Source of the DNA: Chitinophagales bacterium
GTDB taxonomy: Bacteria > Bacteroidota > Bacteroidia > Chitinophagales > Saprospiraceae
Direction of reading: 5' to 3'
Length of the DNA stretch: 64,000 nt
Assembly (NCBI GenBank): GCA_013299105.1
Contig: JAAFJY010000025.1
Coordinates: 1 to 64,000, forward strand
This document shows, piece by piece, positions 24,773 to 43,432 of the stretch. The position numbers and the translations under genes are program-made. Each line of letters begins with the position of its first letter. Positions within the stretch are counted from its first letter, which is position 1. Below the pieces are notes generated by a model. That model worked only from the letters and a program-made list of their open reading frames with translations. It was not told the origin of the DNA and searched no databases.

Positions 24773-26218
24773 CTAACTAAGCCCCAATCGCTCCACCCTC
24801 ACAAAATCCTCCACTGGCCCTTCGCAAACCGCACAGGCATAATCGGGCCCCAACTCGCTGAATGGATTGTTGGCTGAAATACCTTGCAAGCTGTCGCCAT
24901 AACGGCTATCGTACACGTTTTGGCAATGTGGGCATTGGTAAACCTCCAGGGCTGGTTTGGCCGCCGCAGGTTGAGCCGGGCTTGCTGCCACTGGGCCGGG
25001 ACTGGTGTTTTCACCCAGGCGCTCGAAGTACAAGCGGCTCAATTCCATGAGCAGGCCGGGGAGCTCCATTTTGTCCACATCTTGCACATAGGTTTCGTAA
25101 ACTAAGGTGTTGGGATCAAAGTTTTTGGCATAGAGGACATTAAAAGTAGGCCGCACCTGGTAATGCTGCACCACCTTGGGCGCAGGATTGCGCTGAATGA
25201 GGATGGAAGTAAAATTGATGCCATAATGGCTGGTGATGCCAAAAGTCAGCCCATAAGTACTGATGTCGTTTTGGTCGAAATTGCGCACCAAAAAGCGCTT
25301 GAGGTCCAACGCTTCGTCATCAAAAGCAGGAATATGCCAGTTCATTTCCAAGGAAGAGTGACGCTCGTTGATGCCAAAGCGACCCAATAATTTTTGCCAA
25401 GCCACTTCATGGCGTTGATGGATGCCCTTGACAATGAACGACTTCCAGGGGGTGATGCAGATTTTGCCAATTTTACACTCAAAGCACAAATCGCACATGG
25501 CTTTGAGGAATTTTAGGTTGTAGCGGTTGTTGCGCCAGTACAGTCCGAGCCAGAGCTGATCCATTTCAAAACGGTTCATGCCTTCGTAGTAAGGGAAGGG
25601 CACGGCTGGAATTTGCAAGGGCTCTTGTGGCACCCGGCTGTTGGTTTCCAGGGTGCTGCTGAGGTGGTCGAACAAGGCTGCAATATTGGCAATTGAATTG
25701 TCCAAGGCTTCGATGGCCTTGGCCAGTCGGGCCATGTCCCAAGAGTAAATCAACAAAGGGTAGGCTTCTGGTTTGGGCCAATGTGGCAAGCGGATGTAGC
25801 AATACCAATAATCCTCCACATTGGAGGCGATGAAATTCAAATGCCCGGTAAACAAAGGCACCAGCCGCTGGCGTGGATCGGTAATGTTGATCTCTAACTT
25901 CTGCGGTTCGCTGAATTGCTCCAATACATAAAGGTACATGGCGCTGCTGAGCCAGGGCGTACCTGGAAAAATATCGGCCGAAACGTAGGAGCAGACGATG
26001 TTCTGGTAAACGTTGCCCGAAAGGTTTTCGATCTTTAATTGCGGAAAATCAGTGGCAATATGGGCCAAGTCCTGGTCGGTAGGCAGTACGATGTCCTGCC
26101 TGGAACCAAACAAGAGGCTGTCCAAACCCGCCAACTCAGCCAATTCTACGATTTGTTTCAGTTCGCTGGGCGATAATACGCCGCCTTTAACCAAAATGCG
26201 TTGCAAGTTCTGGCGCAT
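24773..26218 (-). CDS. Nitrite-reductase-like protein with C-terminal rubredoxin domain
   Basis: A 481-residue soluble protein. The first 400 residues follow the nitrite/sulfite reductase fold: GGVLSPSELKQIVELAELAG and SRQDIVLP near the start (first ferredoxin-like half), then KICITPWKSFIVKGI at about 252-266 (second half). The paired siroheme/[4Fe-4S] cysteines (C-x5-C and C-x3-C) of true reductases are absent. Instead there is C242-x2-C245-x2-C248-x5-C254, which could hold a cluster. After a Pro/Ala linker (about 405-425) comes a complete rubredoxin, C429-x2-C432 and C462-x2-C465 with the VYDSRYGD and NPFSELGPDYAC motifs. Its start overlaps the nitrate reductase gene by 32 bases, so coupling to that enzyme is likely. 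I infer an electron-transfer partner; no function is established to my knowledge. Confidence 0.8.
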   Translation of the reverse strand: MRQNLQRILVKGGVLSPSELKQIVELAELAGLDSLLFGSRQDIVLPTDQDLAHIATDFPQLKIENLSGNVYQNIVCSYVSADIFPGTPWLSSAMYLYVLEQFSEPQKLEINITDPRQRLVPLFTGHLNFIASNVEDYWYCYIRLPHWPKPEAYPLLIYSWDMARLAKAIEALDNSIANIAALFDHLSSTLETNSRVPQEPLQIPAVPFPYYEGMNRFEMDQLWLGLYWRNNRYNLKFLKAMCDLCFECKIGKICITPWKSFIVKGIHQRHEVAWQKLLGRFGINERHSSLEMNWHIPAFDDEALDLKRFLVRNFDQNDISTYGLTFGITSHYGINFTSILIQRNPAPKVVQHYQVRPTFNVLYAKNFDPNTLVYETYVQDVDKMELPGLLMELSRLYFERLGENTSPGPVAASPAQPAAAKPALEVYQCPHCQNVYDSRYGDSLQGISANNPFSELGPDYACAVCEGPVEDFVRVERLGLS

Positions 26219-29200
26219 GTTTCAAGTTTTTACTGCCCCCCAGGGTTTCGATGGTTTGATCCAGGATTTTCTTTACTTCGGGTTTGCAGGAGCCGCAGCC
26301 CATGCCTGCTCCGGTTTGCTTGCAGAGTTGGCGGAAATCACGGCAACCCGCTTGTACCGCCATCGCGATGTTGTCTTCGCCCACTTGGTTGCAAGAGCAC
26401 ACCAACTTGCCCAGGACTGGCGCGCCCTGGTTTTTGCCGCGCAGCAGTTCCATGCGTTTTTCGCCCAATTCTATTTGATCTTCAATGAGTGCTTTGTACT
26501 CGGCAAACTCGGTTTTGTCGCCGATCAAAATGGCCCCCACCAAACGATCCTGATAGACAATGCACTTCTTGTAGTAGCGCTGGCTCAGGTCCATGAACAC
26601 TACTTGTTCGTAGTCAGGGTCGTCATCTGGGCAGTAAATGTTGCCCACGCTGCACAAGTGCAAGTCCTCGAATTTCAGGATGTTCATCAAAACCGAACCC
26701 CGATAACGGCTGCTGATGTCGCCATTGAGGTAGCGGGCCAGTAGGTCGGCTTGTTGCTCGGCGGCGGCGGTAATGCCGTAGAGTTCTCCTTTGAATTCGG
26801 CAATTTCGCCCATCGCGTAAATGCTTGGATCGGAAGTTTGCAGGTAATCATCCACCACTACGCCTTTACCGCAGCGCAAACCTGCGTTACGGGCCAAGGA
26901 AATGCTGGGAATGGTACCAATGGCATACACTATGGCTGTACAGCTCAGGGTCTTGCCGCTTTTCAGGTTGACCAAAATCCCAGCTTGCTGGGTATTGGGC
27001 AAAATCGTGTGCACTTCATTGTCGTAATAAATCTGGATGCCACGCTCCATCACGTCTTCACCCAAAAGGCGGCTGCCGATCACGTCCAACTGCCGTTCCA
27101 TCAAGCGGGCAGCCCGCTGAATGAGGGTGATTTTTACGTCGATCATGCGCAGTGCGGCAGCCAATTCCAAGCCGAGCAAGCCGCCACCCACGATGACCAC
27201 GTGCTGTTCTTCGCGGGGCAAACCACTTTCTTGCAGGTGGGTTTTGAGGCGGTCGGCATCCAGGCGCGAGCGCATCGTGAACACACCTGGCAGGCTCAGC
27301 GGTGCTTCGCGGGGTACAATCGGCCCGCTGCCCGTAGCCAGGATCAGGCGATCATAAACATGCTCTTGACCTTTGCTGTCGATGATGACTTTGTGTTGGC
27401 TATCAATTGATTCAATACCAGTGGCCAAGTGCAGGTGGATGTTCAGTTTGGCCAATTCAGCATCCTGGATTTTGAGCAATTGCTCCCATTCCAGGTGCTC
27501 GCTCAGGTATTCGGGCAGCAAAACCCGGTTGTAAAAAGCGTGGGGTTCGCGGGAAAAAACGTGAAGTTCGTCATTCGGGTTTTTCTCGCGGTAACTTTGG
27601 ATGAAGCGATAAGCGGCAGCGCCTGCGCCTACAATGACGATTTTTTCAAAAGGCTTGACGAAGGCTTTGACCTGCACACAAGCAAATTTGAAGTCAGGCT
27701 CCTTGGAAAATGGATCCACCAAGTCGCTGCTCAAGTTGTTGGCGCGGCCCAGCTTGCTGTCGAGAATTTTGCCCCAGTGCATGGGTAAAAACACCACCCC
27801 GGGTCGGATTTCTTCGCTGATTTTGACGCAGGCCCTTACTTCGCCACGCTCGTTGTTGATCAGGGCCACATCGCCGTCTTTCAGCCCCCGTTGAGCAGCG
27901 TCTTTGGGGTGAATTTCCAAAAATGGAGCTCCAATATGGGTCAGCAAGCGATTGACTTTGCCCGTCTTGGTCATGGTATGCCACTGGTCGCGGATGCGGC
28001 CCGTGGTGAGGATCAGTGGAAAATCCGTACTGGGTTTTTCGCTGACGTTGTAGATGTTTTTGGGCAAATTGAAGCGCGCCTTGTGGTTGCGGTGATAAAA
28101 CTGCAAGTCTTCGAACAAGCGTGGGGTGCCCGGATGATCGGCACTGGGCACTGGCCATTGGAAAGTACCTTCGCGTTGCAGGCGCTCGTGGCTGAGGCCC
28201 GAAATGTCGATGTTGGTGCCCTTGGTCAGGCGGCAATGTTCGTCATAAATTTCGCTCACGCTGCGGTAATCAAAACCTGCAAAGCCCATTTTTTGGGCAA
28301 AACGCTGTAAAATTTCCACATCCGCCAGGGCTTCGCCAGGTGCGTCGATGGCTTTGGGCAGGTAGGCGATGCGGCGCTCGGAATTGGTCATCACGCCTTC
28401 TTTTTCCAGCCAACCTGCTGCAGGGAGAACCAAATCGGCATAAGCTACTGTATCAGAACGGCTCGAAATGTCCTGCACCACCACAAAGCGGGACTTGAGC
28501 AATCCTTTTTCGACTTCGTTGAGGTTAGGCAGGCTGACCATCGGGTTGGTGCAGATGATCCACACGGCTTTGATGTCGCCATCGGCCAGGCCCTTGAAAA
28601 TTTCGGTGGCCGTGCGACCTGGTTTTTCAGAAATATGCGCAACACCCCAAAAATCAGCCACCTCGCGGCGGTGGGTCGGGTCTGCTAGTGTGCGGTGCGC
28701 GGCCAACATGGTAGCCAGGCCACCTACTTCACGGCCCCCCATCGCATTGGGTTGTCCGGTGAGTGAAAATGGGCCCGCGCCGGGTTTGCCTACTTGCCCC
28801 GTGAGGATGGACAAGTTGATCAGCGATACGTTTTTGTCCACCCCAATGGCGCTTTGGTTGAGCCCCATCGTCCAAAAGCTCAAAAAAGCTTTGGCGTCAC
28901 CGATGTATTTGGCGGCCAGTTTGATGTCAGCTACCTCGACGCCACAGATTTCGGCGGCTTTGCGCAAGGGAGTGTCCATCACCATGCGGCGGTAATTGGC
29001 AAAGCCTTCGGTATTTTGGTTGATGAAAAACTGATCGGCCTTATTGTTCTCGATCAAGCGGCGACCGATGGCGTTGTACAAAACCACATCGGTGCCGGGT
29101 TTGATTTGCAGGTGCAGGTCGGCGATGGCGCAAGTCTGGGTCTTGCGCGGGTCCACCACGATGACCTTGATATTTGGATTTTTTTCCTTGTGCTGTTCCA

Positions 29201-29759
29201 TGCGGCGGAACAAAATGGGGTGGCACCAGGCGGCATTGGCACCAGCGAGCAGCATACAATCCGAGAGCTCGATGTCGGCGTAAGTGGTGGGTACGCTGTC
29301 CTCTCCAAAAGTTTTGGTATACCCCACCACTGCCGAACTCATGCACAGGCGAGAATTGGTGTCAAGGTTGTTTGTTCCTAAGAAACCCTTTACGAGCTTG
29401 TTAACGAGGTAATATTCTTCGGTCAGGCATTGACCCGACACGTAAAAGGCCACGCTGTCGGGGCCGTGTTTTTCGATGATGGATTTGAAAGTAGCCGCTG
29501 CGCGGTCCAGGGCGGTGTCCCAGGATACGCGTTCGAGGGGATGGTTGCGGCTCCAGCGCATTTCGGGATACAGTAGTCGGTCGCTTTGGTCTTGGGCCAC
29601 ATAGTGCAGGTTCATGCCCTTGGAGCAGAGCATACCCTGGTTCACGGGGTGATCAGGGTCGCCTTTGACCTTCAAACGCCCATTTGCGTCTTTGTTTACC
29701 ACTACACCACAACCAACGCCACAGTAGGAGCAGGTCGATTTGTATGCTTGCTGTTTCAT
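26187..29759 (-). CDS. nasA: Assimilatory nitrate reductase fused to a NirB-type FAD and [2Fe-2S] module
   Basis: A 1190-residue cytoplasmic fusion that would reduce nitrate to nitrite. Residues 1-700 are a molybdopterin oxidoreductase: C10-x2-C13-x3-C17-x27-C45 binds [4Fe-4S], and LDTNSRLCMSS places the likely Mo-ligand Cys at 139. The dinucleotide-binding C-terminal part contains LTTGRIRDQWHTMTKTG. Residues about 703-1110 are an FAD/NAD(P)H oxidoreductase (KIVIVGAGAAAYRF, LILATGSGPIVPR, HVVIVGGGLLGLELAAAL). Residues about 1120-1160 are a BFD-like [2Fe-2S] domain (CSC...GCGSC). In Bacillus these functions are split between NasC and NasB. It has no signal peptide. It is followed by the overlapping rubredoxin-tailed gene and preceded by the nitrate ABC importer. 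Confidence 0.95.
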   Translation of the reverse strand: MKQQAYKSTCSYCGVGCGVVVNKDANGRLKVKGDPDHPVNQGMLCSKGMNLHYVAQDQSDRLLYPEMRWSRNHPLERVSWDTALDRAAATFKSIIEKHGPDSVAFYVSGQCLTEEYYLVNKLVKGFLGTNNLDTNSRLCMSSAVVGYTKTFGEDSVPTTYADIELSDCMLLAGANAAWCHPILFRRMEQHKEKNPNIKVIVVDPRKTQTCAIADLHLQIKPGTDVVLYNAIGRRLIENNKADQFFINQNTEGFANYRRMVMDTPLRKAAEICGVEVADIKLAAKYIGDAKAFLSFWTMGLNQSAIGVDKNVSLINLSILTGQVGKPGAGPFSLTGQPNAMGGREVGGLATMLAAHRTLADPTHRREVADFWGVAHISEKPGRTATEIFKGLADGDIKAVWIICTNPMVSLPNLNEVEKGLLKSRFVVVQDISSRSDTVAYADLVLPAAGWLEKEGVMTNSERRIAYLPKAIDAPGEALADVEILQRFAQKMGFAGFDYRSVSEIYDEHCRLTKGTNIDISGLSHERLQREGTFQWPVPSADHPGTPRLFEDLQFYHRNHKARFNLPKNIYNVSEKPSTDFPLILTTGRIRDQWHTMTKTGKVNRLLTHIGAPFLEIHPKDAAQRGLKDGDVALINNERGEVRACVKISEEIRPGVVFLPMHWGKILDSKLGRANNLSSDLVDPFSKEPDFKFACVQVKAFVKPFEKIVIVGAGAAAYRFIQSYREKNPNDELHVFSREPHAFYNRVLLPEYLSEHLEWEQLLKIQDAELAKLNIHLHLATGIESIDSQHKVIIDSKGQEHVYDRLILATGSGPIVPREAPLSLPGVFTMRSRLDADRLKTHLQESGLPREEQHVVIVGGGLLGLELAAALRMIDVKITLIQRAARLMERQLDVIGSRLLGEDVMERGIQIYYDNEVHTILPNTQQAGILVNLKSGKTLSCTAIVYAIGTIPSISLARNAGLRCGKGVVVDDYLQTSDPSIYAMGEIAEFKGELYGITAAAEQQADLLARYLNGDISSRYRGSVLMNILKFEDLHLCSVGNIYCPDDDPDYEQVVFMDLSQRYYKKCIVYQDRLVGAILIGDKTEFAEYKALIEDQIELGEKRMELLRGKNQGAPVLGKLVCSCNQVGEDNIAMAVQAGCRDFRQLCKQTGAGMGCGSCKPEVKKILDQTIETLGGSKNLKHAPELATHFG

Positions 29760-29875: not shown

Positions 29876-30124
29876 TGTAGAGACAGGGCATGCCCTGTCT
29901 CACGTAACACTGGAAAAATTCCTTGAAAGGTTGGCTGTTCTCTCACTGAACTAATTGTAGAAAGCGGATGAAGCAGGGTGACAACTGCTGCAAGGTTTTA
30001 GTTGGTGCAAAAAACTTGACGAAACCTTGCTTACACATCTGTACCCATTGGAAATTGTTCAAAACAATGTTTACGAAAAAATAATCCAACATCACATTAG
30101 ACAGGGCATGCCCTGTCTCTACAC
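29876..30124. repeat. Element bounded by inverted palindromes
   Basis: The perfect palindrome AGACAGGGCATGCCCTGTCT occurs at 29881-29900 and 30099-30118. The flanks are mirror images: TGTAG before the first and CTACA after the second, so the 249-base segment is an inverted-repeat unit. Its right end supplies the TAG stop of the ABC ATPase gene. Each palindrome could also fold as a terminator. No gene lies inside; the spacer 29760-30118 is otherwise featureless. Confidence 0.8.
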
Positions 30125-30916
30125 ATGTTCCAGAAAATCAATCAAATGGCTGCGGTATTCGTAATAATCCGGATGCTCCATCACTGCCTTGCGCTCACGG
30201 GGACGCTCAAGGTGAATATTAAGTACATCACCGATCTGGGCACGCGGGCCGCTGGTCATCATCACTACGCGGTCGGAGAGGAAAATGGCTTCATCAACGT
30301 CGTGGGTGATCATGATGGCGGTGATTTTTTCGCGGTTCCACACTTCGAGCAGCACTTCTTGCAACTCGGCACGGGTCAGGGAGTCGAGCATTCCAAAGGG
30401 TTCGTCCAACAAGAGAATTTGTGGCTTGATGGCAAAAGCCCTGGCAATGCCCACCCTTTGTTGCATGCCTTGCGAGAGGTCTTTGGCGCGTTTGTCCAAG
30501 GCATCACCCAAGCCTACTTTTTGCAGGTAATAGCTGGCAATGTCCCTGCGGGTATCCTTGGTTTCGTGTGGAAAAACCTGGTTTACGCCCAAAAGCACAT
30601 TGTCCAATGCACTCATCCAGGGCAAAAGGCTGGGCGATTGGAAAATCACGCCCCGATCCGGGCCAGGGCCTTTGATGGCTTTTCCGCCCAACAAAATCTG
30701 GCCTCCACTGATCGGATTCAAGCCTGCAATCATCGACAATAGGGTCGATTTTCCGCAGCCCGAATGGCCAATGATGGACATGAACTCGCCCTTCATGATG
30801 TCCAGTTGCAGCTCGTGCAAGACCTCATAACTTTGGCCTTTGGGCAGCGGATAACTTTTGCTCAATTTTTGGCAAGAAAGCAAAATGGGCGAAGCTAAAG
30901 CAGTATTGGCGCTCAT
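30119..30916 (-). CDS. nrtD: Nitrate ABC transporter ATP-binding protein (NrtD-type)
   Basis: A 265-residue ABC ATPase: Walker A GHSGCGKST (50-58), Q-loop region GVIFQSPSLLPWMSALDNVLLG, signature DLSQGMQQRVGIARAFA (about 145-160), Walker B QILLLDEPFGMLD, and an H-loop in MITHDVDEAI. It matches the NrtD/SsuB/TauB class that powers uptake of nitrate, sulfonates or taurine; the genes around it make nitrate the natural substrate. It would pair with the second ATPase upstream (31073) on the NrtB permease. Its last codons run into the palindromic repeat, which provides the stop codon, so the original C-terminus may have been a little different. Confidence 0.9.
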   Translation of the reverse strand: MSANTALASPILLSCQKLSKSYPLPKGQSYEVLHELQLDIMKGEFMSIIGHSGCGKSTLLSMIAGLNPISGGQILLGGKAIKGPGPDRGVIFQSPSLLPWMSALDNVLLGVNQVFPHETKDTRRDIASYYLQKVGLGDALDKRAKDLSQGMQQRVGIARAFAIKPQILLLDEPFGMLDSLTRAELQEVLLEVWNREKITAIMITHDVDEAIFLSDRVVMMTSGPRAQIGDVLNIHLERPRERKAVMEHPDYYEYRSHLIDFLEHV

Positions 30917-30925
30917 GATTTAGAA

Positions 30926-30946
30926 GTTATGAGTTATGGGTTATGA
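30926..30946. repeat. Short tandem heptamer array (3 units)
   Basis: GTTATGA, GTTATGG, (G)GTTATGA about 10 bases upstream of the ATPase start at 30916. Confidence 0.55.
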
Positions 30947-31072
30947 GTGGGGGCTCGCTGGCAAACATTTTATACCTAAAGTGCATGTCTCCACTTTTAC
31001 ATAAAGTTGAAATTCAGCTTTTGCAAACCGCTGAAAAAACAATGGCTTATAGGATACGCAAATCAGTTAGAA

Positions 31073-31933
31073 TTAGCGCAAGGCCAGTGAAAAGCCACTT
31101 CGGGGCATCACAGGTTTTACATCGGGCAGTTCGCGATTGACTTCCAGCTCTTTTTGGCGTTTTGCATCGGCACCTGTATCGAGTAGGTAAGTGATCACGT
31201 CGTTGCGCAGGCGCTTGTATTCGGGGATGTGGTTGAGTTGGGTTTTGTCGCGAGGGCGCTCAATGTCGATGGCAAAAGCTGGCCCCAAAGTGGCGCTGGG
31301 GCCAGGGTTGAGCGGAATGATCCGATCAGCCATGAGAATGCCTTCGTCCACATCGTTGGTGATGAGGAGCGCCGTGCGGCGATTTTCGTTCCAAATTTTT
31401 AGGATTTCTTGTTGCAGATTGCCACGGGTCAAAGCGTCGAGTGCGCTGAGGGGCTCGTCCATGAGCAATACTTCGGGTTCCATGGACAGGGCACGGGCTA
31501 CGGCTACACGTTGGCGCATGCCGCCCGACAATTCAGCGGGAGCTTTGTGGGCTGCATGGCTCAGATTGACCATACTGATGTAGCGCATGACGTGGGCTTC
31601 GCGCTGGGCTTTGCTCCATTTTGGGAAAACTTGGGCCACTCCCAAGTCAATGTTTTGGGCTACACTCAGCCAAGGCAGTAAGGAGTAGTTTTGAAAAACC
31701 ATGCCCCGCTCATGGCCAGGGCCTTTGATGGCCTGGCCTTTGTACAAGACTTCACCTTTGTCCGCTTGTTGCAAGCCCGCCAGCAGTTTGACCAGGGTGG
31801 TTTTACCACTGCCCGAGTAACCCACGATGGCGACAAACTCGCCTTCTTGGATGTTGAGGTTGATGTTGTTCAATACCTCCGTTCTTTGGCGGCCCTCGCC
31901 GAATGACTTATAAATATTTTTTAACTGTAACAT
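31073..31933 (-). CDS. nrtC: Nitrate ABC transporter ATP-binding protein (second, NrtC/D-type)
   Basis: A 286-residue ABC ATPase: Walker A GYSGSGKTT (38-46), GMVFQNYSLLPWLSVAQNIDLG, signature ELSGGMRQRVAVARALS (about 134-150), Walker B VLLMDEPLSALDALTR, and ITNDVDEGI where the usual H-loop His is replaced by Asn (TND for THD), a feature seen in NrtC-like subunits. Cyanobacterial NrtC carries a C-terminal nitrate-binding domain of several hundred residues; here the protein ends about 50 residues after the ATPase core. With the canonical NrtD ATPase it likely forms a heterodimer with one degenerate site (inference). Confidence 0.88.
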   Translation of the reverse strand: MLQLKNIYKSFGEGRQRTEVLNNINLNIQEGEFVAIVGYSGSGKTTLVKLLAGLQQADKGEVLYKGQAIKGPGHERGMVFQNYSLLPWLSVAQNIDLGVAQVFPKWSKAQREAHVMRYISMVNLSHAAHKAPAELSGGMRQRVAVARALSMEPEVLLMDEPLSALDALTRGNLQQEILKIWNENRRTALLITNDVDEGILMADRIIPLNPGPSATLGPAFAIDIERPRDKTQLNHIPEYKRLRNDVITYLLDTGADAKRQKELEVNRELPDVKPVMPRSGFSLALR

Positions 31934-32101
31934 TATGATTAAAAGTTGAATTAAACACGAAATTGTAAAATCTCAACAGGCTTCTTTTTACGTCGCACTT
32001 CATCCGAAGTGCCAAAGAGTCCTGGGCTCTGATCACTACAAACGTCTCACTTCTCCGAAGTATAACGCTCTCTGAGATACGGATTGAGAACTTACATGGG
32101 A
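31934..32101. other. Spacer with small hairpins and a family 5 end
   Basis: GCACTTCATCCGAAGTGC is a compact hairpin near 31997. GATTGAGAACTTAC near 32083 matches the right terminus of the family 5 element at 17106-17267. No promoter recognised. Confidence 0.4.
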
Positions 32102-33106
32102 TCAGGCGAAAGACACTTTTTGCTGCAAGGCGGCCATCAGGCGGTCCAGGGCATAACCGATCATGCCGATAGTCAATACGGCCACCATGATGCGGGCAAT
32201 TGAAGTGCTGGAACCATTTTGAAATTCATCCCAGATGAACTTGCCCAGACCTGGGTTTTGAGCCATCATTTCGGCGGCGATCAAAACCATCCAACCCACG
32301 CCCAGGGTGATGCGCAAGCCCGTGAAAATCATGGGCAAAGTAGCGGGCAAGATGACCTTGAAAGTGCGCTGGCGAGCAGAGAGTTGCAGTACTTGAGCTA
32401 CATTCAGGTAATCTTTGTTCACTGAAGCCACGCCCACCGCGGTGTTGATCAAGGTTGCCCACAAGGAGCACATGGCTACCGTGACGGCTGAAATGATGAA
32501 GGATTTTGGTACCAATCCGTTGTTGGTGGTGTAAACTGCGCTCACGACCATTGTCACAATCGGCAGCCAGGCCAAGGGCGATACGGGCTTCAGGACCTGG
32601 ATGATGGGATTGAGTGCGGTCATGATGTTTTTGTTGGCCCCACAAATGATACCAATGGGCAAAGCCAGAATGGAGGCAAAAATGAAGCCTACGAACACCG
32701 TTTTCAGGCTGGTCAGGATCTGATCAAGGTAAGTAGGCTTACCCGTGAACGCCACCCTTCTGGGCTTGGCATTGGGATTGGCCGCTTTAATTTTAGCGAT
32801 TCTGGCATCTTGGCGAGCGTAGAAGTCGTTCGCTTTTGCGCGTTCAGTAAGGTGTTCTTGCCAAAGCACCTGGGCCTGTTGGGTTACTTCCATGGGGCCA
32901 GGCAAGCGGCCCAGGCTGGTGTTGACCCTTTGGGCCACCAAGTGCCAAGTCAGCAGAAAACCAGCGATAGCCATGACGGGCAACCCAATGGAGGTCCAAA
33001 TTTGCCGCAATTGGACCAGTATTTCTTCGCCGCTGAACAAACGAACAAAAGGAATGGCCCAAAACATGCCAGTAAATTGTAAGAGTTGAATGGTTCTTGC
33101 CTTCAT
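32102..33106 (-). CDS. nrtB: Nitrate ABC transporter permease
   Basis: A 334-residue inner-membrane permease of the NrtB/SsuC/TauC class. After a cytoplasmic start (about 30 residues) and a first membrane segment (VMAIAGFLLTWHLVAQ), a charged insert of roughly 40 residues (about 85-130, AKANDFYARQDARIAKIKAA) precedes the core. The core has TVFVGFIFASILALPIGIICGA, KPVSPLAWLPIVTMVV and the EAA loop VILPATLPMIFTGLRITLGVGW. The canonical family is about 270-280 residues, so the insert is notable. Immediately upstream is the substrate-binding protein and downstream are the two ATPases, a standard importer order. Confidence 0.93.
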   Translation of the reverse strand: MKARTIQLLQFTGMFWAIPFVRLFSGEEILVQLRQIWTSIGLPVMAIAGFLLTWHLVAQRVNTSLGRLPGPMEVTQQAQVLWQEHLTERAKANDFYARQDARIAKIKAANPNAKPRRVAFTGKPTYLDQILTSLKTVFVGFIFASILALPIGIICGANKNIMTALNPIIQVLKPVSPLAWLPIVTMVVSAVYTTNNGLVPKSFIISAVTVAMCSLWATLINTAVGVASVNKDYLNVAQVLQLSARQRTFKVILPATLPMIFTGLRITLGVGWMVLIAAEMMAQNPGLGKFIWDEFQNGSSTSIARIMVAVLTIGMIGYALDRLMAALQQKVSFA

Positions 33107-33115
33107 GGCTTTTTT

Positions 33116-33204
33116 GAGTTTAAAAGTTTAATGTTGAAGAGTTGAAAAGATGGGCTTCGATTGGAGCTGGTCTTTTCAACCCTTCAACTTTTCAACATTT
33201 CAAC
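33116..33204. repeat. Facing octamer arrays able to form a long hairpin
   Basis: TTTTCAAC, CCTTCAAC, TTTTCAAC, ATTTCAAC run from 33173 to 33204, and the reverse-complement type units GTTGAAGA, GTTGAAAA lie at 33133-33148. GTTGAAGAGTTGAAAAG can pair with CTTTTCAACCCTTCAAC, making a stem between nrtA and nrtB that may attenuate or stabilise the transcript. Confidence 0.65.
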
Positions 33205-33208
33205 AAGG

Positions 33209-34585
33209 TTACTTCATTGCCTTTTGGTCCTTGATGCCAATGGCCAGCTTGTTCAGGTAAACCACTGGGTTTTTGCCGTCGTATTCCACCCCGTCGATGA
33301 AGTCTTTGCTGGGCGCTTTGAATCCATCGGTGCTCGGAAGGTCACTGGCCTTGATCTTGCCTTCGGCGAGCAGGGCTTCTGCGGCTTCTTTCCAGACTTC
33401 AGGCAGGTAGACTTTCTTGGCCGTTTCGATGTACCAATCCTTGGTCTTGGGCTCAGTGATTTGGCCCCAGCGGCGCATTTGGGTCAGGTACCAGATGCAA
33501 TCGCTGTAATAAGGATAAGTAGCGTTGTACTTGAAGAACACGTTGAAGTCAGGCAGTTCACGCTTGTCACCTTTTTCGTATTCAAAGGTCCCGGTCATGC
33601 TGTTGGCGAGTACGGCTTCGTCGGCACCTACGTATTCGGGCTTGCTTAGGATTTTCACGGCTTCGGCGCGATTCGCTCCTTCATTTTCATCCAACCACTG
33701 GCAAGCACGCATGATGGCTTTGGTCAGGGCAACCAAAGTTTTAGGGTTTTGATCGGCAAAGCTGCGCAAAACGCCAAACACTTTTTCTGGGTTGTTTTTC
33801 CAGATTTCCAAGTCGGTTACTACGGGTACCCCGATGCCTTTGAAGACGGCCTGTTGGTTCCAAGGTTCTCCTACGCAGTAGCCCAGGATGGTGCCTGCTT
33901 CGAGGGTTGCGGGCATTTGTGGTGGAGGCGTTACAGAAATGATGACGTCGCCATCGACGGTGCCAGTGATGTTGTCTTTGGTATAAAAACCAGGGTTGAT
34001 GCCGCCTGCGGCCAACCAGTAGCGCAATTCATAGTTGTGCGTGGACACTGGAAAAACCATTCCCATATTGAAGGGTTTGCCGCCTTTTTTGTATTGCTCC
34101 ACCACTGGCTTCAGGGCCTTGGCAGAGATGGGGTGAACGGGTTTGTCACCTTCCATTGGCACGTTGGCCTTCATCATTTTCCATACTTCATTGGAGACGG
34201 TGATGGCGTTGCCGTTCAAGTCCAAGCTGATGGGGGTAACTACTTCGGCAGTCGTACCAAAGCCGATGGAAGCACCGATGGGTTGGCCAGCCAGCATGTG
34301 AGCACCGTCCAATTCGCCTGCTACCACGCGGTCGAGTAGTACTTTCCAGTTGGCTTGTGCCTCCAGGGTCACGTACAAGCCCTCGTCTTCAAAAAAGCCT
34401 TTTTCTTTGGCGATGGCCAGGGGGGCCATGTCGGTCAGTTTGATGAAACCCAGTTTGAGCTCCGGTTTTTCCAGCTCTTCAGGCAATGCCGTTGAGCTGG
34501 TATCGGTAGTGCTGGGGGCTTTGCCACCACAGGCGAAGAAAGTGGCCAATGCGACCAAAGTGAACAGTTGGAATATCTTTTTCAT
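33209..34585 (-). CDS. nrtA: Nitrate-binding lipoprotein of the ABC importer
   Basis: A 458-residue lipoprotein (lipobox ATFFAC, Cys about 19) of the NrtA/CmpA family, larger than SsuA/TauA as expected for nitrate binders. Landmarks: [27 protein letters not shown], a lobe-1 opening; [47 protein letters not shown], typical of the nitrate/bicarbonate group; and [32 protein letters not shown]. It should be anchored in the periplasm and hand nitrate to NrtB. It is the first importer gene after the outer-membrane porin, with 178 bases between them that include an octamer array. Confidence 0.93.
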
Positions 34586-34763: not shown

Positions 34764-36077
34764 TTACAGCTTGCTCACCAGCAAGGTGGGGCTAAACGAA
34801 ATCATGCAGTAGGCCCAGTTTTGCATGGCCTTGTAGTCGCCGCCTTTGATTTTGGCCATCGAGCTGGTGGCAAACAACTGCGAATAACCCATTTCCAATT
34901 TTACATCAGGAATGATGGTGCTGCTGAGTACGAAATCGAGTTCGGTGCCGAGGTTGCGAGACAGGTCACCGCCTTTTTTCTCTGGGTTCTGGTACAGGTC
35001 CACGGCGGAGAAAAACTGGTGCGCGGTGGTTTGCAACATGGCCTTTTTGCCGATGGGCAGGTTCGCGCGAATGTAGGGATCCACGAGACCAATGGTTTTG
35101 CTCATTTGGGTGTGGGCATTGCCTACGTAGAAGTAGTCCATGTTGCCATAAAACTTGTGGTGGGTTCCGTACAGCGGGTTGAAAGCATTGTTGCTGGTGG
35201 CTGCATCGTCTAGGGAAGCGCCGCTTACATAGTCTGCGCCCAGGATGATGTTGCTTTTTTTAGCAAAAGGCAGGGTCAGCGAGCCAGCCAAGAATAGCGC
35301 GTTTACTTCTTTGCCAACTGCGTCCTTGCCTATTTGCAAATAAGCTTCACCCTCCAGTTTGGCTTTTTTCAACTTGATGCTGCCAATGCCACCCAGGGTT
35401 TGGGTAAAATACACGCTGCTGTCTTTGGCTTGCTGGCCGTTATTCAGGGCCAAAAGAGACAAAGTACCTTTTTTGAAATCGCGGTGATACCACAAGAACT
35501 GCATGGTTTTGTAGTTGCCGCCTACATTGTAAAAGGTTTCCAGCAACTTGCTTTGCTCAGGAGTCTTGCCATCCTGGTTGAAAGCCGCACCGAGGTGCAA
35601 CTGCTGTACGGAGTCTTTGCGAACGAATAACAAACCATCGTGTACTCGGCTCTGCTGCGCCCAAGCCAGGTTGCCAAGGATGCGGGCGTTGTCGTAATCC
35701 CATTCCTGGCGGCCCATTTTCAGGCTTGTTTTCTTGCTGAACTTCAAGTTGGCCCAGGCTTGGTGAACGGCCGCAAAGGAGTTTCCCGAGCCAGCGCTGG
35801 TTTTAAAAATCTGGGCTTCTTCGCCCCAAATTCGTACATCTTGGTAAGAAATCAGGAAATCGTACTTGGGTGCGCTGAGGCCAGCAATCAAGCGGGTACG
35901 CTGGTCGGTGAAAAAAGCGGCATTTTGTTTTGCCGGATCAATCAGCTTTTTGAAACCGTGGCGGTACTCGGTGCGCGGGCGTACCTCAGCTTTGAGGGTA
36001 AAGGTGGACTGCGCCATGCCTTTATTCAAAGCCAATAGGTACACTGCACCAATAGCAAGGGTATAAATGCGCTTCAT
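34764..36077 (-). CDS. Outer-membrane porin, alginate-export-like family (probable nitrate porin)
   Basis: A 437-residue protein with a signal peptide (MKRIYTLAIGAVYLLALNKGMAQ). Its beta-rich body has the pattern of the alginate-export porin family: EVRPRTEYRHGFKKL, FFTDQRTRLIAGLSAPKYDF, QDVRIWGEEAQI and KMGRQEWDYDNARILGNLAW. It should form an 18-strand-type barrel giving passive entry for small anions. As the first gene of the nrt-nas transcript it is probably the nitrate channel of the outer membrane (context inference; alginate export is excluded by the absence of any such genes). Its promoter is the best defined in the window: TTG, 19 bases, TATCTTTG, flanked by three TACGTA palindromes. 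Confidence 0.82.
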   Translation of the reverse strand: MKRIYTLAIGAVYLLALNKGMAQSTFTLKAEVRPRTEYRHGFKKLIDPAKQNAAFFTDQRTRLIAGLSAPKYDFLISYQDVRIWGEEAQIFKTSAGSGNSFAAVHQAWANLKFSKKTSLKMGRQEWDYDNARILGNLAWAQQSRVHDGLLFVRKDSVQQLHLGAAFNQDGKTPEQSKLLETFYNVGGNYKTMQFLWYHRDFKKGTLSLLALNNGQQAKDSSVYFTQTLGGIGSIKLKKAKLEGEAYLQIGKDAVGKEVNALFLAGSLTLPFAKKSNIILGADYVSGASLDDAATSNNAFNPLYGTHHKFYGNMDYFYVGNAHTQMSKTIGLVDPYIRANLPIGKKAMLQTTAHQFFSAVDLYQNPEKKGGDLSRNLGTELDFVLSSTIIPDVKLEMGYSQLFATSSMAKIKGGDYKAMQNWAYCMISFSPTLLVSKL

Positions 36078-36176
36078 CTTAAAGTAGTTTGGTGTTGAGT
36101 TTGGTTTGCGCTAGTTCCATTTGTAAGAGATCCAGGTCTGATCCCTTTTTAGACATACCCGACTACGCTATTTCCG

Positions 36177-36265
36177 GATAATTACGTAGTCAACACCACA
36201 AAGATAAAGGTTTTTAAGTAAAATACAAGTAATTACGTAGAAAAATACTTAAAAAATACGTATTT
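36177..36265. promoter_or_regulatory. Candidate operator sites of the nitrate regulon
   Basis: TAATTACGTA occurs exactly at 36179-36188 and 36230-36239, and the palindrome AAATACGTATTT at 36254-36265. One copy abuts the -33 element, one lies further upstream, one lies about 20 bases downstream of the -7 box. The motif recurs at the other promoters of the island (36995-37004, 42640-42649). Confidence 0.55.
36199..36228 (-). promoter_or_regulatory. Promoter of the porin-nrt-nas operon
   Basis: On the minus strand TTG (36228-36226) and TATCTTTG (36206-36199) are 19 bases apart, matching the Bacteroidota -33/-7 promoter. The leader to the porin ATG at 36077 is about 115 bases. Confidence 0.65.
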
Positions 36266-36277
36266 TTAACTTAACTT

Positions 36278-36970
36278 TTAGATAAGCTTCAATTCGCGGG
36301 CCTTTTGAGAGAGTTCCATGAGATTTTTGGCCCCTAGTTTTTTCATAAAATTGTGCCGATGTGCTTCAACTGTACGCACTTTTTTGTCCAATTGATCGGC
36401 AATTTCTTTGTTACTTAGCCCATTGATCACCAATTTAAGGATTTGTAACTCGCGTTTGGTGAGGTACAATGGTTCTGGGTTAGCTTCAAGGCTACCTGGG
36501 TTGTGGGGTTGAACAGGTGGGGTTGTGCCAGTTTGCTGCACCTTTTCCAAATACTTATTGACAATGATCTTGGAGATATCGGCGCTGAAATACTTCTCGC
36601 CCTGGTGAATTTGGCGGATAGCCTTTAGAAATTCATCTTTGCCCGCACCTTTCAAAATGTAGCCATACGCTCCCGCTTCAACGGATTCGAGTACGTAGTC
36701 TTCGGAGTCGTGCATAGAAAGCACCAATGCACGGGTATTGGGGGCTACTTGCTCTAGTTCTCTTACGGTTTCAATGCCCGTTTTGCGGGGCATGCGGATG
36801 TCGACGATCAACAGATCAGGTTGGCTAACTCGTACCCGTTCTAGCGCCTCCACCCCATCGGCAGCCTCACCCACTACTTCTAAGCCTTCGACGTCTTCCA
36901 AAAGAGAGCGAATGCCATCGCGAATGAGTTGGTGGTCATCGGCCAATACGATATTGATGTGAGGATTCAT
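36278..36970 (-). CDS. NarL/LuxR-family response regulator
   Basis: A 230-residue response regulator. The receiver domain is at about 1-125: acidic pair ADD at 10-12, phospho-acceptor Asp57 in DLLIVDIRMP, and VLSMHDSEDYVLESVEAGAYGYILKGAGKDE with the conserved Lys. A Pro/Gln-rich linker (about 145-165) leads to a LuxR-type helix-turn-helix (LTKRELQILKLVINGLSNKEIA, KKVRTVEAHRHNFMKKL). It should be phosphorylated by the histidine kinase encoded 68 bases upstream, which has a NarX-like sensor. Its own gene and the operons on both sides carry TAATTACGTA-type motifs, so it is the most likely protein to bind them. Confidence 0.93.
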   Translation of the reverse strand: MNPHINIVLADDHQLIRDGIRSLLEDVEGLEVVGEAADGVEALERVRVSQPDLLIVDIRMPRKTGIETVRELEQVAPNTRALVLSMHDSEDYVLESVEAGAYGYILKGAGKDEFLKAIRQIHQGEKYFSADISKIIVNKYLEKVQQTGTTPPVQPHNPGSLEANPEPLYLTKRELQILKLVINGLSNKEIADQLDKKVRTVEAHRHNFMKKLGAKNLMELSQKARELKLI

Positions 36971-36994
36971 CTACAAAAATTAGGACTGCGTAAA

Positions 36995-37030
36995 TTATTA
37001 CGTAAAGATACCTAGAAATTTGCAAAAATA
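36995..37030 (-). promoter_or_regulatory. Possible promoter and operator of the response regulator gene
   Basis: TATTTTTG at 37030-37023 fits the -7 consensus, and TTATTACGTA at 36995-37004 differs from the porin motif TAATTACGTA at one base and contains the palindrome TTACGTAA (36998-37005). This lies in the 68-base gap between kinase and regulator genes. Confidence 0.45.
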
Positions 37031-37038
37031 GAGATTTC

Positions 37039-38865
37039 TTATGGCGATTCTCGCTTCCTCAAAGGCACATTCAAGGTAATCCTGGTTCCTTCCCCGAGCT
37101 CTGAGCGCAGAAACATGCGGCCTTGGATGAACTGCATGCGTTCTTGCATGAAAGCTAGCCCACGGCCACTGCCATCCGAACGCAATTCCATCTCATCAGG
37201 GTCAAATCCTTGGCCATCATCATCAATCACAATGCTAAACATACTTTCGCTGTGGCTGAGTTTGATCAAAATATAGTTGGCTTTAGCGTACTTGATGGCA
37301 TTGTTAACCGCTTCTTGGGTAATGCGGTACAAGTTGGTTTCAACCACTGTATCTAAGCGTTCGTTAAACTGGTGTTGGTTTTCAAACAAGATATTGCTAC
37401 CCGTTAAGCGCCCCAGTTCGCTTGCCAGGCGGGCCAAGCCCGTTGCAATACCATAGTCGCTCAGCTCCGGGGGGGTGAGGTTAAAAGTGACGATTCGCAC
37501 TTCCTGGATTACCTGGCTGGTCAGATTTTGTAATTTTTCGAGTTTTGGCTTGGCTTTCTCAGGCTGGTCCAGGTTGATGGAATCAAGGTTGAGTTTCAAA
37601 GCGCTTAGCATTTGACCAATCCCATCGTGCATGTCGCGGGCGATGCGCTTGCGCTCTTCCTCTTGGGCATCAAGCACTTGTACCGAACGCAATATTTGCT
37701 GTTTGAGTTGTTCTTCAAAACGTTCCTGATTGAGGCGTTCGATTTCCGCTTGGGCATCTTTACGAAAAGTGATGTCGGAGCAAAGGATCAACAAGTCGCG
37801 ATTCAAACCCTGTGGGCTTACTGGAATAACCGCCATTTCCAGCCAGAGGCGACGCTCATCGTGGGTGCTGATCTGGATTTCACCCGTCCAGATGCGGTTC
37901 CGGGCTTTTTGAATGCTTTCTTCAATGGTCTTTTGCCCAGCTGCATCGGCGCACATGATTTCGGACAGGTGGCCCCGCAGTTTTTGGTTTTTATAGCCCA
38001 ACAACTGCCGTAATTTTTCACTCAAGTGCCTTACCTGACCGTCGGCACTGCAATTGGCGAATAGCGCAGCCTGGTCAACGGCGTAATTCAAAGCTCGCAA
38101 CTCTTGCAACGACTTTTCCTTCGCTTGGTACAGCTCATTCATCTCAGCGGCCATGCCACGAGCTTCTTGTTCGGAATGCAATAGTTTGTGTAAAACGTCC
38201 CTCACATGCAAAGCCGCCGGACGAAAAATCAAGAGCAACTCTAAAAGTAAAATGGCCAGGGAAATGACCAAAAGCCACCACTCAATGCGCTGAATTTGCT
38301 GCACTTTGGCCTGGGCTTCCGCATCATATTGGAATACGATTTGGTCCATTTCAGACAAAAATCGGCGTTCATTGTCCAAGACTTCTTGTACAACTCCCTG
38401 TTTCAAGGACTGTTTAGCCGCCGAGGCATCCGCGACTTCTTTGACCGCGAAAAACAAAGCCTTAAAAATTGGATTTAAGCGCCGAAACATGCTGTCGACC
38501 ACCGCAGTGTTTTCGTTGGGTAAACCCAGGCTTGGCGCCCCCCCTTGCAAGGCACGGTGAGCCTGCCGCCAAGCGTGTAAGTCCCTGCGCAAGGCTTGTC
38601 TCACCATTTTCAACGAATCCTCAGCCCCTCCCCTACTCAGCAAAAGTGTCTGCTTGGTGATCCTTTGGCTGAGCATCCTTTGCCGCCCAGCCACGTTGAT
38701 CACCCTTGAGTCGTTGACTTGTTTTTTGAGAAAATTCTGGATCAGCAATTGCCCGCTGATGACCGCCAAAGCAATGGCTCCCAAGGCGATCACGTAACCC
38801 GTACGCAAGCGGTCGAAAGTACTGGAGTCGATGCGCTCCTTTGCTTTACCAGCGTTTGAAAACAT
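37039..38865 (-). CDS. NarX-like sensor histidine kinase
   Basis: A 608-residue membrane kinase. It has a first membrane segment at about 21-43, then a periplasmic PilJ/NarX-type sensor domain beginning with RVINVAGRQRMLSQRITKQ (54-72), close to the P-box that binds nitrate in NarX and NarQ. The second membrane segment is at about 193-213 (WWLLVISLAILLLELLLIF). A coiled linker (about 220-260) follows, then a PAS domain (about 265-385, with ENRRIWTGEIQI-type features). The HisKA_3 dimerisation helix carries His413 in RIARDMHDGIGQ, and an HHK-type ATPase domain is at about 500-605 (EAVNNAIKYAKAN, DDDGQGFD, SGRGLAFMQERM). It lies directly upstream of the NarL-type regulator. Nitrate or nitrite sensing is inferred from the P-box and context. 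Confidence 0.9.
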   Translation of the reverse strand: MFSNAGKAKERIDSSTFDRLRTGYVIALGAIALAVISGQLLIQNFLKKQVNDSRVINVAGRQRMLSQRITKQTLLLSRGGAEDSLKMVRQALRRDLHAWRQAHRALQGGAPSLGLPNENTAVVDSMFRRLNPIFKALFFAVKEVADASAAKQSLKQGVVQEVLDNERRFLSEMDQIVFQYDAEAQAKVQQIQRIEWWLLVISLAILLLELLLIFRPAALHVRDVLHKLLHSEQEARGMAAEMNELYQAKEKSLQELRALNYAVDQAALFANCSADGQVRHLSEKLRQLLGYKNQKLRGHLSEIMCADAAGQKTIEESIQKARNRIWTGEIQISTHDERRLWLEMAVIPVSPQGLNRDLLILCSDITFRKDAQAEIERLNQERFEEQLKQQILRSVQVLDAQEEERKRIARDMHDGIGQMLSALKLNLDSINLDQPEKAKPKLEKLQNLTSQVIQEVRIVTFNLTPPELSDYGIATGLARLASELGRLTGSNILFENQHQFNERLDTVVETNLYRITQEAVNNAIKYAKANYILIKLSHSESMFSIVIDDDGQGFDPDEMELRSDGSGRGLAFMQERMQFIQGRMFLRSELGEGTRITLNVPLRKRESP

Positions 38866-39476: not shown

Positions 39477-39848
39477 TCAAAATCCGATGTAAACATACCC
39501 ATCCATAATTTTCACTGGATAAACGGCAAGTGCCTGGCAATCGCCATTCAAATTTTCGCCGCTGATCAAAGAAAAGGTCCGTTTGTGCATGGGGCATGCC
39601 ACTTTGGGTTCTCCTTTTTCATCGCCAATCAGGCCCCGCGAAATGACCATTTCCATGCGGTGCGGACAGAGATTCTGGCATGCATACCACTGGTCGATGT
39701 TGGTAAAATGAAAGACTGCGATTTGTTTGTCCTGGTATCTCACGCAGGCTCCGGCATTGGGCGGGAATGCACTGCAAGGACCCGCCTTGAACCAGGTTTT
39801 TACTTCCGGTTCGTTGACTGGGGCATATTTTGCAAGTAGATTTTCCAT
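39477..39848 (-). CDS. nirD: Nitrite reductase small subunit, Rieske-type
   Basis: A 123-residue Rieske protein. Cluster ligands are C61-P-H63 in NLCPHRMEM and C85-P-M-H88 in VACPMHKRTF, the C-x-H and C-x2-H pairs of a [2Fe-2S] Rieske site. It lacks a membrane anchor, as expected for the cytoplasmic NirD partner of NirB. It follows nirB in the same direction after 198 bases, a gap wider than usual and partly filled by a heptamer array. Family 1 and 3 repeats fill the space downstream. With NirB it should reduce nitrite to ammonium using NADH. Confidence 0.93.
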   Translation of the reverse strand: MENLLAKYAPVNEPEVKTWFKAGPCSAFPPNAGACVRYQDKQIAVFHFTNIDQWYACQNLCPHRMEMVISRGLIGDEKGEPKVACPMHKRTFSLISGENLNGDCQALAVYPVKIMDGYVYIGF

Positions 39849-42661: not shown

Positions 42662-43432
42662 ATGGTGAAAGCACTCAAATCTCCCAAAATTACGCTGGTT
42701 GGAGCTGGCCCCGGCGATCCAGACCTGATCACTCGCAAGGGTTGGAAAGCCCTACAAAGTGCAGATGTGGTGCTTTACGACGCATTGATTCACCCAGATT
42801 TGTTGGCGGAAATACCTAGTGGAGTACCATGTTTCTATGTAGGCAAAAGGTGCAGTCAGCACAGTTTCAGCCAGGAGGAGATCAATCGACAGTTGGTCGA
42901 TTGTGCCCGATTTTACGGCCATGCCGTGCGTTTGAAAGGTGGAGATCCTTTCGTCTTTGGCCGTGGAATGGAAGAAGTACAGTATGCCAAAAGCCAGGGC
43001 ATTGAGCAGATTGAGGTCATTCCGGGCATCAGCAGCGCGATTGCAGGTCCTGCGGCGGCTGGTATTCCGGTGACCAGCCGGGGCTATAGCAACAGTTTTT
43101 GGGTCTTGACCGCCAGCACCAAAACAGGGGAATTGAACAAGGACCTAGAAATAGCCGCCCAATCTTCAGCTACGGTGGTGGTCCTGATGGGGATTCAAAA
43201 ACTGGAAGCTATTTTGGACTTGTTTCAACAACATCGAAAAATGGACACACCAGTGGCCATCATTCAAAATGCTACGATGCCCGATCAAAAAACGATCATT
43301 GGAGAAATAGGTACATTATCATGTGGTGTAGCAAAACCCGACCCGAAAGCAGCGGGATTGGTGGTGATTGGAGAGGTGGTGAACTTGGCTTCGCAAGAGA
43401 TGATCAAAGCGATTGTTAATCAGGTGAAATAG
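42662..43432 (+). CDS. cobA: Uroporphyrinogen-III C-methyltransferase
   Basis: A 256-residue SUMT that methylates uroporphyrinogen III twice with SAM to give precorrin-2, on the way to siroheme. Motifs: LVGAGPGDPDLITRKGW at the N-terminus, VVLYDALI, VRLKGGDPFVFGRGMEE, VIPGISSAIAGPAAAGIPVTSRG and VVLMGIQKL. It is the single-domain form, not the CysG fusion, so the dehydrogenase/ferrochelatase must be encoded elsewhere. Divergence from nirB with a shared 107-base control region fits supply of siroheme to the nitrite reductase. Cobalamin synthesis is an alternative use (cobS lies at 63 kb but is not linked). Confidence 0.96.
   Translation: MVKALKSPKITLVGAGPGDPDLITRKGWKALQSADVVLYDALIHPDLLAEIPSGVPCFYVGKRCSQHSFSQEEINRQLVDCARFYGHAVRLKGGDPFVFGRGMEEVQYAKSQGIEQIEVIPGISSAIAGPAAAGIPVTSRGYSNSFWVLTASTKTGELNKDLEIAAQSSATVVVLMGIQKLEAILDLFQQHRKMDTPVAIIQNATMPDQKTIIGEIGTLSCGVAKPDPKAAGLVVIGEVVNLASQEMIKAIVNQVK

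Follow-up and report, generated by a model that had tools for sequence, protein, structure and literature searches.

A rubredoxin-tailed member of the sulfite/nitrite-reductase fold encoded beside the fused nitrate reductase of Bacteroidota

Bacteroidota are one of the major phyla of soils, freshwaters and the sea, and their assimilatory nitrate reduction is usually interpreted through the proteobacterial and Bacillus systems. In a member of the Saprospiraceae (Chitinophagales bacterium, GCA_013299105.1), the gene of the assimilatory nitrate reductase NasA is overlapped by another whose product joins a body resembling nitrite reductases, here called the scaffold, to a rubredoxin. What is this protein, and what might it do next to a nitrate reductase? 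We analyzed it in a stretch of 64,000 nucleotides (contig JAAFJY010000025.1, positions 1 to 64,000), hereafter the window, and across related genomes and plasmid records. The gene and the parts of its product lie as follows:

24773..26218, minus strand: rubredoxin-tailed scaffold gene, whole (481 aa; ATG start at 26218)
25604..26218, minus strand: first NIR/SIR-like module (about residues 1-205), a half-domain (GG, RQ motifs) and what remains, without ligands, of the siroheme/[4Fe-4S] domain
25457..25495, minus strand: C242-x2-C245-x2-C248-x5-C254, of which only the CxxC at 242/245 is widely kept
25013..25597, minus strand: second NIR/SIR-like module (about residues 208-402), a TPWKS...GI half-domain and a second ligand-free domain
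24947..25012, minus strand: Ala/Pro-rich, unconserved linker (about residues 403-424), from sequence, alignment and low model confidence
24791..24946, minus strand: rubredoxin domain (residues 425-476) with Cys 429, 432, 462 and 465, from Pfam, PDB matches and structure

The 481-residue open reading frame proposed in a sequence-only reading of the window holds up as a real gene on the minus strand. Read forward in frame 1, positions 24773-26218 contain stops, and the closest relatives (L001 and L084) begin with almost identical residues at the predicted start. NasA ends at 26187, which confirms the 32-base overlap that had been reported. The two had also been called "fused", which was a misnomer, as they are adjacent, overlapping genes for separate proteins. 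The product contains 10 cysteines (76, 140, 242, 245, 248, 254, 429, 432, 462 and 465). Pfam recognized two stretches of NIR_SIR_ferr (E 2e-8), a rubredoxin (E 2.9e-8) and nothing further at E<=1. No NCBIfam family covers the protein: it gave rubredoxin-type matches only, far under their cut-offs, and stayed below the threshold of the rubredoxin equivalog NF045768 (30.4 bits vs a cut-off of 90).

The half-module signatures of nitrite reductases, first noticed in the bare sequence, were recovered by Pfam in the two NIR_SIR_ferr stretches and by a profile match to CysI. Together, the two stretches score 34.3 bits against a cut-off of 24, the best single one being under it at 22.7 bits, and 40/40 family members scanned gave a NIR_SIR_ferr match at E<=0.1. 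The siroheme/[4Fe-4S] domain NIR_SIR (PF01077) had no match in the window protein or in the 40 members scanned. A profile of the family (77 sequences over residues 1-405) gave an alignment of 385 columns to E. coli CysI (80-544), with a profile-comparison probability of 94.7 (97.9 in global mode) and an E-value of 6e-8, the E-values being based on one single template. This stronger score was obtained with E. coli CysI as the first row of the template and with the columns of the window protein; earlier profile comparisons with NirB and CysI templates were weak (probabilities of 31.9 and 23.2). Searched against the PDB, the sequence profile returned two chance-like matches and no NIR/SIR chain.

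Structure prediction pointed to the same fold. Our two AlphaFold models had low mean pLDDT values (57.5 and 55.2), probably because the input alignments held near relatives only (46 and 38 rows), and they served for fold comparison only. With the first model, the best 31 Foldseek matches were all sulfite or nitrite reductases, at low TM-scores (0.25-0.28), and VIA-align superposed its confident parts on the sulfite reductase 4g39 with Z 14.3 over 133 aligned residues (rmsd 2.3 A). For the second model, the best row (Z 14.0, 252 aligned) had an rmsd of 10.2, and the next row gave Z 13.7 with 132 aligned at 2.6 A. The first module is thereby defined by NIR_SIR_ferr at residues 7-47, by the CysI profile alignment and by the match to 4g39; past residue ~285, the second module has the profile alignment as its one support, the models being of low confidence there. 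CobG (TIGR02435) had no match in the window protein at E<=1; weak matches at E<=0.1 occurred in 16/66 members (best E 8.3e-6). Altogether, residues 1-405 very probably form a whole two-module sulfite/nitrite-reductase fold without its metal centre.

The CysI alignment is uncertain in the region of the cysteine ligands, where it places C434 and C483 in gaps, C440 opposite Met292 and C479 opposite His331. A search for conserved siroheme ligands that might have been overlooked found none at the CysI ligand places. Judged from these alignments, the cysteine ligands of the siroheme-[4Fe-4S] centre (C-x5-C, C-x3-C) are absent from the scaffold, and the proposal of a reused NIR/SIR fold that has shed them is borne out by Pfam, the structural match and the CysI alignment alike. 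We rejected siroheme reductase as the identity of the protein, the cysteine ligands being missing; we class it with the NIR/SIR fold but not among the siroheme reductases. CysI and NirA share with it the two-module fold and the Pfam half-domains, whereas the scaffold has no cysteine ligands, carries a rubredoxin tail and is only 9-20% identical in the structural matches.

A good part of the former active-site region is nevertheless strongly conserved. R40-Q41 occupies the place of R117-Q118 in E. coli CysI and is invariant in 77/77 sequences, as are W89, Q117, N128, E212-G213, W223, Y227, R229, E291 and K307; K259 and H287 are kept in 76/77, and R286 is nearly invariant. In CysI, we take R83, R117, R153, K215 and K217 to be the basic residues around siroheme. 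K107 of the window protein lies at the K215 place, and the K217 place holds Lys in most relatives. The R83 place is Arg in the window protein, though not in all relatives. These residues (R40-Q41, N128, E291 and K307, with the nearly invariant K259, R286 and H287, and the lysines at the K215 and K217 places) could indicate a carrier or sensor that couples nitrate and nitrite reduction by binding siroheme, a different tetrapyrrole, nitrite or nitrate in the former active site. We regard this as unlikely: the cysteine ligands are gone, and the window protein has Gln at the place of CysI R153 and Glu at that of K217. The same charged residues might be taken as signs that the protein is still a reductase, working through a new active site. 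However, the genome already has NirB, NirD and a further protein with two NIR_SIR_ferr stretches (a 756-residue frame on contig C25), and the scaffold shows no conserved metal site, except perhaps the CxxC. A catalytic role is therefore highly improbable.

The positions given earlier for a four-cysteine motif (242, 245, 248 and 254) are correct; its role as a cluster site did not survive comparison. Among 47 near sequences (the window protein and 46 relatives), Cys242, 245 and 248 are present in 47/47 and Cys254 in 42/47. Conservation is poor in the 77 diverse sequences, where C242 is found in 69, C245 in 74, C248 in 12 and C254 in 38, the last two being lineage-specific. On these counts, the four-cysteine motif appears to be a trait of some lineages and the CxxC its only general feature, and we rejected it as a family-wide cluster site. 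The window protein and its near relatives could still use it to hold an FeS cluster, which would make the protein a multi-centre electron wire, but such variation at 248 and 254, in a family whose rubredoxin cysteines never vary wherever the domain is kept, makes this very unlikely.

The rubredoxin is joined to the scaffold by a linker that is probably flexible (pLDDT 34 for block 401-410 and 32 for block 411-420). That the rubredoxin is complete, with C429, C432, C462 and C465, is supported by Pfam and by structure, its model matching solved rubredoxins with a VIA-align Z of 9.4 (54 aligned, rmsd 1.0). All four cysteines are kept in 67/67 copies that bear the domain, and the domain is missing in 10/77 copies. 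Within the near set of 47, they are present in 46; the remaining one, a Flavobacterium relative (L042:9962-11287), has a frame of 428 aa that ends before the rubredoxin. As its near relatives differ, the early end is likely a frameshift or sequencing error.

The gene belongs to a nitrate assimilation cluster, whose other members in the window are:

26187..29759, minus strand: NasA (1190 aa), with [4Fe-4S] and molybdopterin domains, a NirB-like FAD/NADH module that includes a Rubredoxin_C-type domain, and a BFD [2Fe-2S] domain
30119..34585, minus strand: nitrate-type ABC transporter, with two ATPases (from sequence only), a permease and an NrtA-like binding protein (Pfam)
34764..38865, minus strand: alginate-export-type porin, LuxR-type response regulator and histidine kinase with PilJ-type sensor
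39486..39797, minus strand: NirD (NCBIfam TIGR02378, over its cut-off)
40047..42554, minus strand: NirB with a genuine NIR_SIR siroheme/[4Fe-4S] domain (Pfam)
42662..43432, plus strand: tetrapyrrole methylase (Pfam TP_methylase; relatives annotated cobA), divergent from NirB

The methylase is probably a uroporphyrinogen-III C-methyltransferase for siroheme. The PilJ-type kinase and the LuxR-type regulator (36278-38865) resemble a nitrate-sensing pair, and the alginate-export-type outer-membrane protein (34764-36077), which also occurs in a Spirosoma nitrate cluster (L114:3431-4954), is possibly a nitrate porin. Further along the window, a 624-residue open frame (49122-50996) had no Pfam match at E 0.001.

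How specific is the link between the scaffold gene and NasA? In the genome contig collection, NasA lay directly upstream in 45 of the 46 close relatives; the other one sits at a contig edge. All 46 are Bacteroidota, as are the 4 of 72,556 plasmid records that matched with each of three queries; the close relatives and the plasmid records were the searches that reached beyond the phylum, the profile searches being run within it. The gene was found in 7/100 genomes of the window organism's own family. We then sampled 392 Bacteroidota genomes with the family profile. Matches occurred in 109 genomes, 33 of them along the scaffold; in the other 76, the best E was 8e-12 or weaker and, among the matches listed, confined to the C-terminal rubredoxin part. 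The surroundings of the window copy and of 23 others among the 33 homologues were viewed. The fused NADH-type NasA was present in 36/392 genomes, with shorter matches only (43-45%) in another 8. Both genes occurred together in 31 genomes, that is, 31/33 with the scaffold gene and 31/36 with NasA.

In 57/57 measured pairs, the scaffold gene shares the strand of NasA and lies downstream of it; 15 pairs overlap, 32 lie within 50 bases and 49 within 200, and the largest gap is 954. When a NasA tree of 67 rows is rooted at its midpoint, 62 sequences with the scaffold gene separate from 5 without. The distances of the two proteins are correlated (r 0.83; 0/1000 label shuffles as high), as expected of any co-inherited pair. 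The tight and specific link to the fused NasA is supported by the 45/46 and 57/57 counts, by the sample of 392 genomes and by the NasA tree. In the five NasA-only genomes (G314, G107, G148, G252 and G274), NasA is more distant, the scaffold gene does not occur nearby, and the cluster contains a NirA/CysI-like frame with 24-28% identity to the CysI of G483. At loci L116-L120, a NirA/CysI-like frame in the cluster goes with a separate NasA clade that has no rubredoxin partner. In G274, the NasA frame is broken into two overlapping frames (L120:8865-12550), likely by a frameshift.

The earlier suggestion that the protein acts as an electron relay or docking subunit of NasA was only partly sustained: the reuse of the fold and the link to NasA fit it, but NasA has an NADH chain of its own. 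All four cysteines of the BFD [2Fe-2S] site are kept in 67/67 aligned NasA proteins and those of the first cluster in 63/67, the others being gaps or one Ser. To judge by its domains, the chain from NADH through FAD, [2Fe-2S] and [4Fe-4S] to molybdenum looks complete in NasA by itself; with its own NADH, FAD and [2Fe-2S] modules, no relay is needed to complete it. The Rubredoxin_C-type domain of NasA is present in NirB too and is consequently not a sign of a rubredoxin partner.

That NasA is fully equipped with redox domains, yet the gene tracks one NasA lineage, would suit a factor for NasA maturation or activity (cofactor insertion, folding or protection), with the rubredoxin taking part in assembly, by a redox reaction or by donating iron. 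This is the strongest rival to a role as a subunit, and we consider it rather doubtful. Rubredoxins are redox carriers, and the constancy of the four cysteines in domain-bearing copies argues against it.

The scaffold gene also keeps company with the nitrite reductase. In the genomes tested, it goes together with NirBD: full-length NirB with NirD was present in 26/26 genomes that have both NasA and the scaffold gene, and NirB in 0/5 with NasA alone and 0/2 with the scaffold gene alone, in a comparison that comprises few independent lineages. This companionship agrees as well with a scaffold that binds siroheme or an anion. We nevertheless favour, with confidence a little short of even, an accessory subunit of NasA in which the fold docks and the tethered rubredoxin carries electrons. 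The cluster-free fold would serve for docking and positioning on NasA, and perhaps on NirBD, with no part in catalysis, and the rubredoxin on its linker would be a swinging one-electron carrier. It may receive electrons from the rubredoxin-reductase-type FAD module of NasA, perhaps also from that of NirB, and would pass them on to NasA. Given that NasA can apparently send NADH electrons to molybdenum alone, the arm may be a second electron inlet, or it may share electrons between NasA and NirBD against nitrite build-up, by analogy with the ferredoxin NasG of the Paracoccus nas operon, for which a passage in the literature proposes electron sharing between nitrate and nitrite reductase (PMC4724949). 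Against a role as a subunit, NasA in five genomes lives without the scaffold partner.

Copies found away from NasA bear on both the rubredoxin and the scaffold. In family f2, 44/195 genomes carry the scaffold gene, and 45/49 places were viewed as 20-kb stretches (G532, G547, G581 and G644 were left out). Among the 77 copies, 62 are beside NasA, one (L187) is beside a NasA cut by a contig edge and one (L184) is itself at a contig edge. The gene thus adjoins NasA in most copies, though not in all. Three free-standing copies bear a rubredoxin (L160, L162 and L171, genus g280); they are second copies, in genomes that have another one beside NasA, and each adjoins one and the same 748-residue open frame.

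The remaining free-standing copies are the 10/77 that have no rubredoxin. None adjoins NasA (L092, at a contig edge, was scored accordingly because its genome has no detected NasA), and in a quick tree they form a single clade (SH-aLRT 100) inside the rubredoxin-bearing family. In 8 of these 10 genomes, one of them 83% complete, NasA was not found at E 1e-100; in the other two, a further copy, with rubredoxin, adjoins NasA. Homologues in genomes with no detected nitrate reductase of this kind therefore do occur, and with the counts of 31/36 and 31/33 they speak against an obligate partnership with the fused NasA. On the other hand, the homologues in those eight genomes also have no rubredoxin, so that this result partly favours the idea of a NasA partner. 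The rubredoxin-less copies look functional by their coding sequences: 9/10 matches are stop-free (the tenth runs past its own end), dN is 0.17-0.25 among the pairs listed (n=12), with synonymous sites mostly saturated, and the median dN/dS is 0.07 from the 4/45 pairs that saturation left usable.

Since the rubredoxin is missing only in a clade away from NasA, it appears to belong to the work with NasA, and the persistence of the scaffold without NasA or rubredoxin suggests that it has another role too. The rubredoxin-less copies being one clade, they reflect one evolutionary event, and the correlation counts once. Their presence in genomes without detected NasA would also befit the more general helper that a maturation factor could be, but the free-standing copies have no conserved neighbour in common, apart from a few loci that come mostly from a single genus. 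The rubredoxin-less copy of G483 (L094:3244-13047) lies between heme/siroheme-synthesis-like genes and a divergent CysI-type reductase; the former read like 5-aminolevulinate, porphobilinogen and hydroxymethylbilane synthases and siroheme dehydrogenase (a reading of the sequences only). For the scaffold as a binder of siroheme, this neighbourhood is a favourable sign, weakened by not being common to other free-standing copies. Extending the accessory-subunit reading, we can also envisage, as a doubtful but possible generalization, that the metal-stripped fold is a reusable docking body, which with its rubredoxin arm would be a third redox component, balancing electrons between NasA and NirBD, and without the arm would serve another partner in lineages devoid of this nitrate reductase.

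Parallels to known systems are partial. A rubredoxin is likewise a domain of a redox protein in flavorubredoxin and in the rubredoxin-containing hybrid cluster protein; here, by contrast, the bearer is probably a non-catalytic NIR/SIR fold. Nitrate reduction in a Clostridium draws on a rubredoxin as its electron carrier. NarM is an accessory protein required for the cyanobacterial assimilatory nitrate reductase NarB, a precedent for the maturation or activity factor considered above, and is not known to contain a rubredoxin. NasG, as portrayed in the passage cited above, is a small iron protein of a nas operon, as the rubredoxin is here; it is a ferredoxin with its own gene, whereas here the rubredoxin is the tail of a large scaffold, and NasA comes with an NADH module. 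In Aquirufa, a nitrate/nitrite assimilation operon is described as including a rubredoxin (PMC12528234), and a table shows the same presence pattern for rubredoxin as for nitrate and nitrite reductase (PMC10821818). This "rubredoxin" is a candidate counterpart of the window gene; the two passages concerned do not mention a NIR/SIR scaffold. Two plasmid records likewise annotate relatives of the window protein as "rubredoxin". In the titles and abstract openings listed by searches that reached mostly journals open without subscription, we found no description of an architecture that joins a NIR/SIR scaffold to a rubredoxin.

The main NasA type of Bacteroidota thus has an almost constant companion, which has been on file merely as "rubredoxin". 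If it is indeed an electron-transfer subunit or an activity factor, heterologous work on NasA without this partner could mislead or fail. Moreover, the family varies in both rubredoxin and NasA, some members having and others lacking each, and offers a natural experiment in how a dead metalloenzyme fold may come by a new job.
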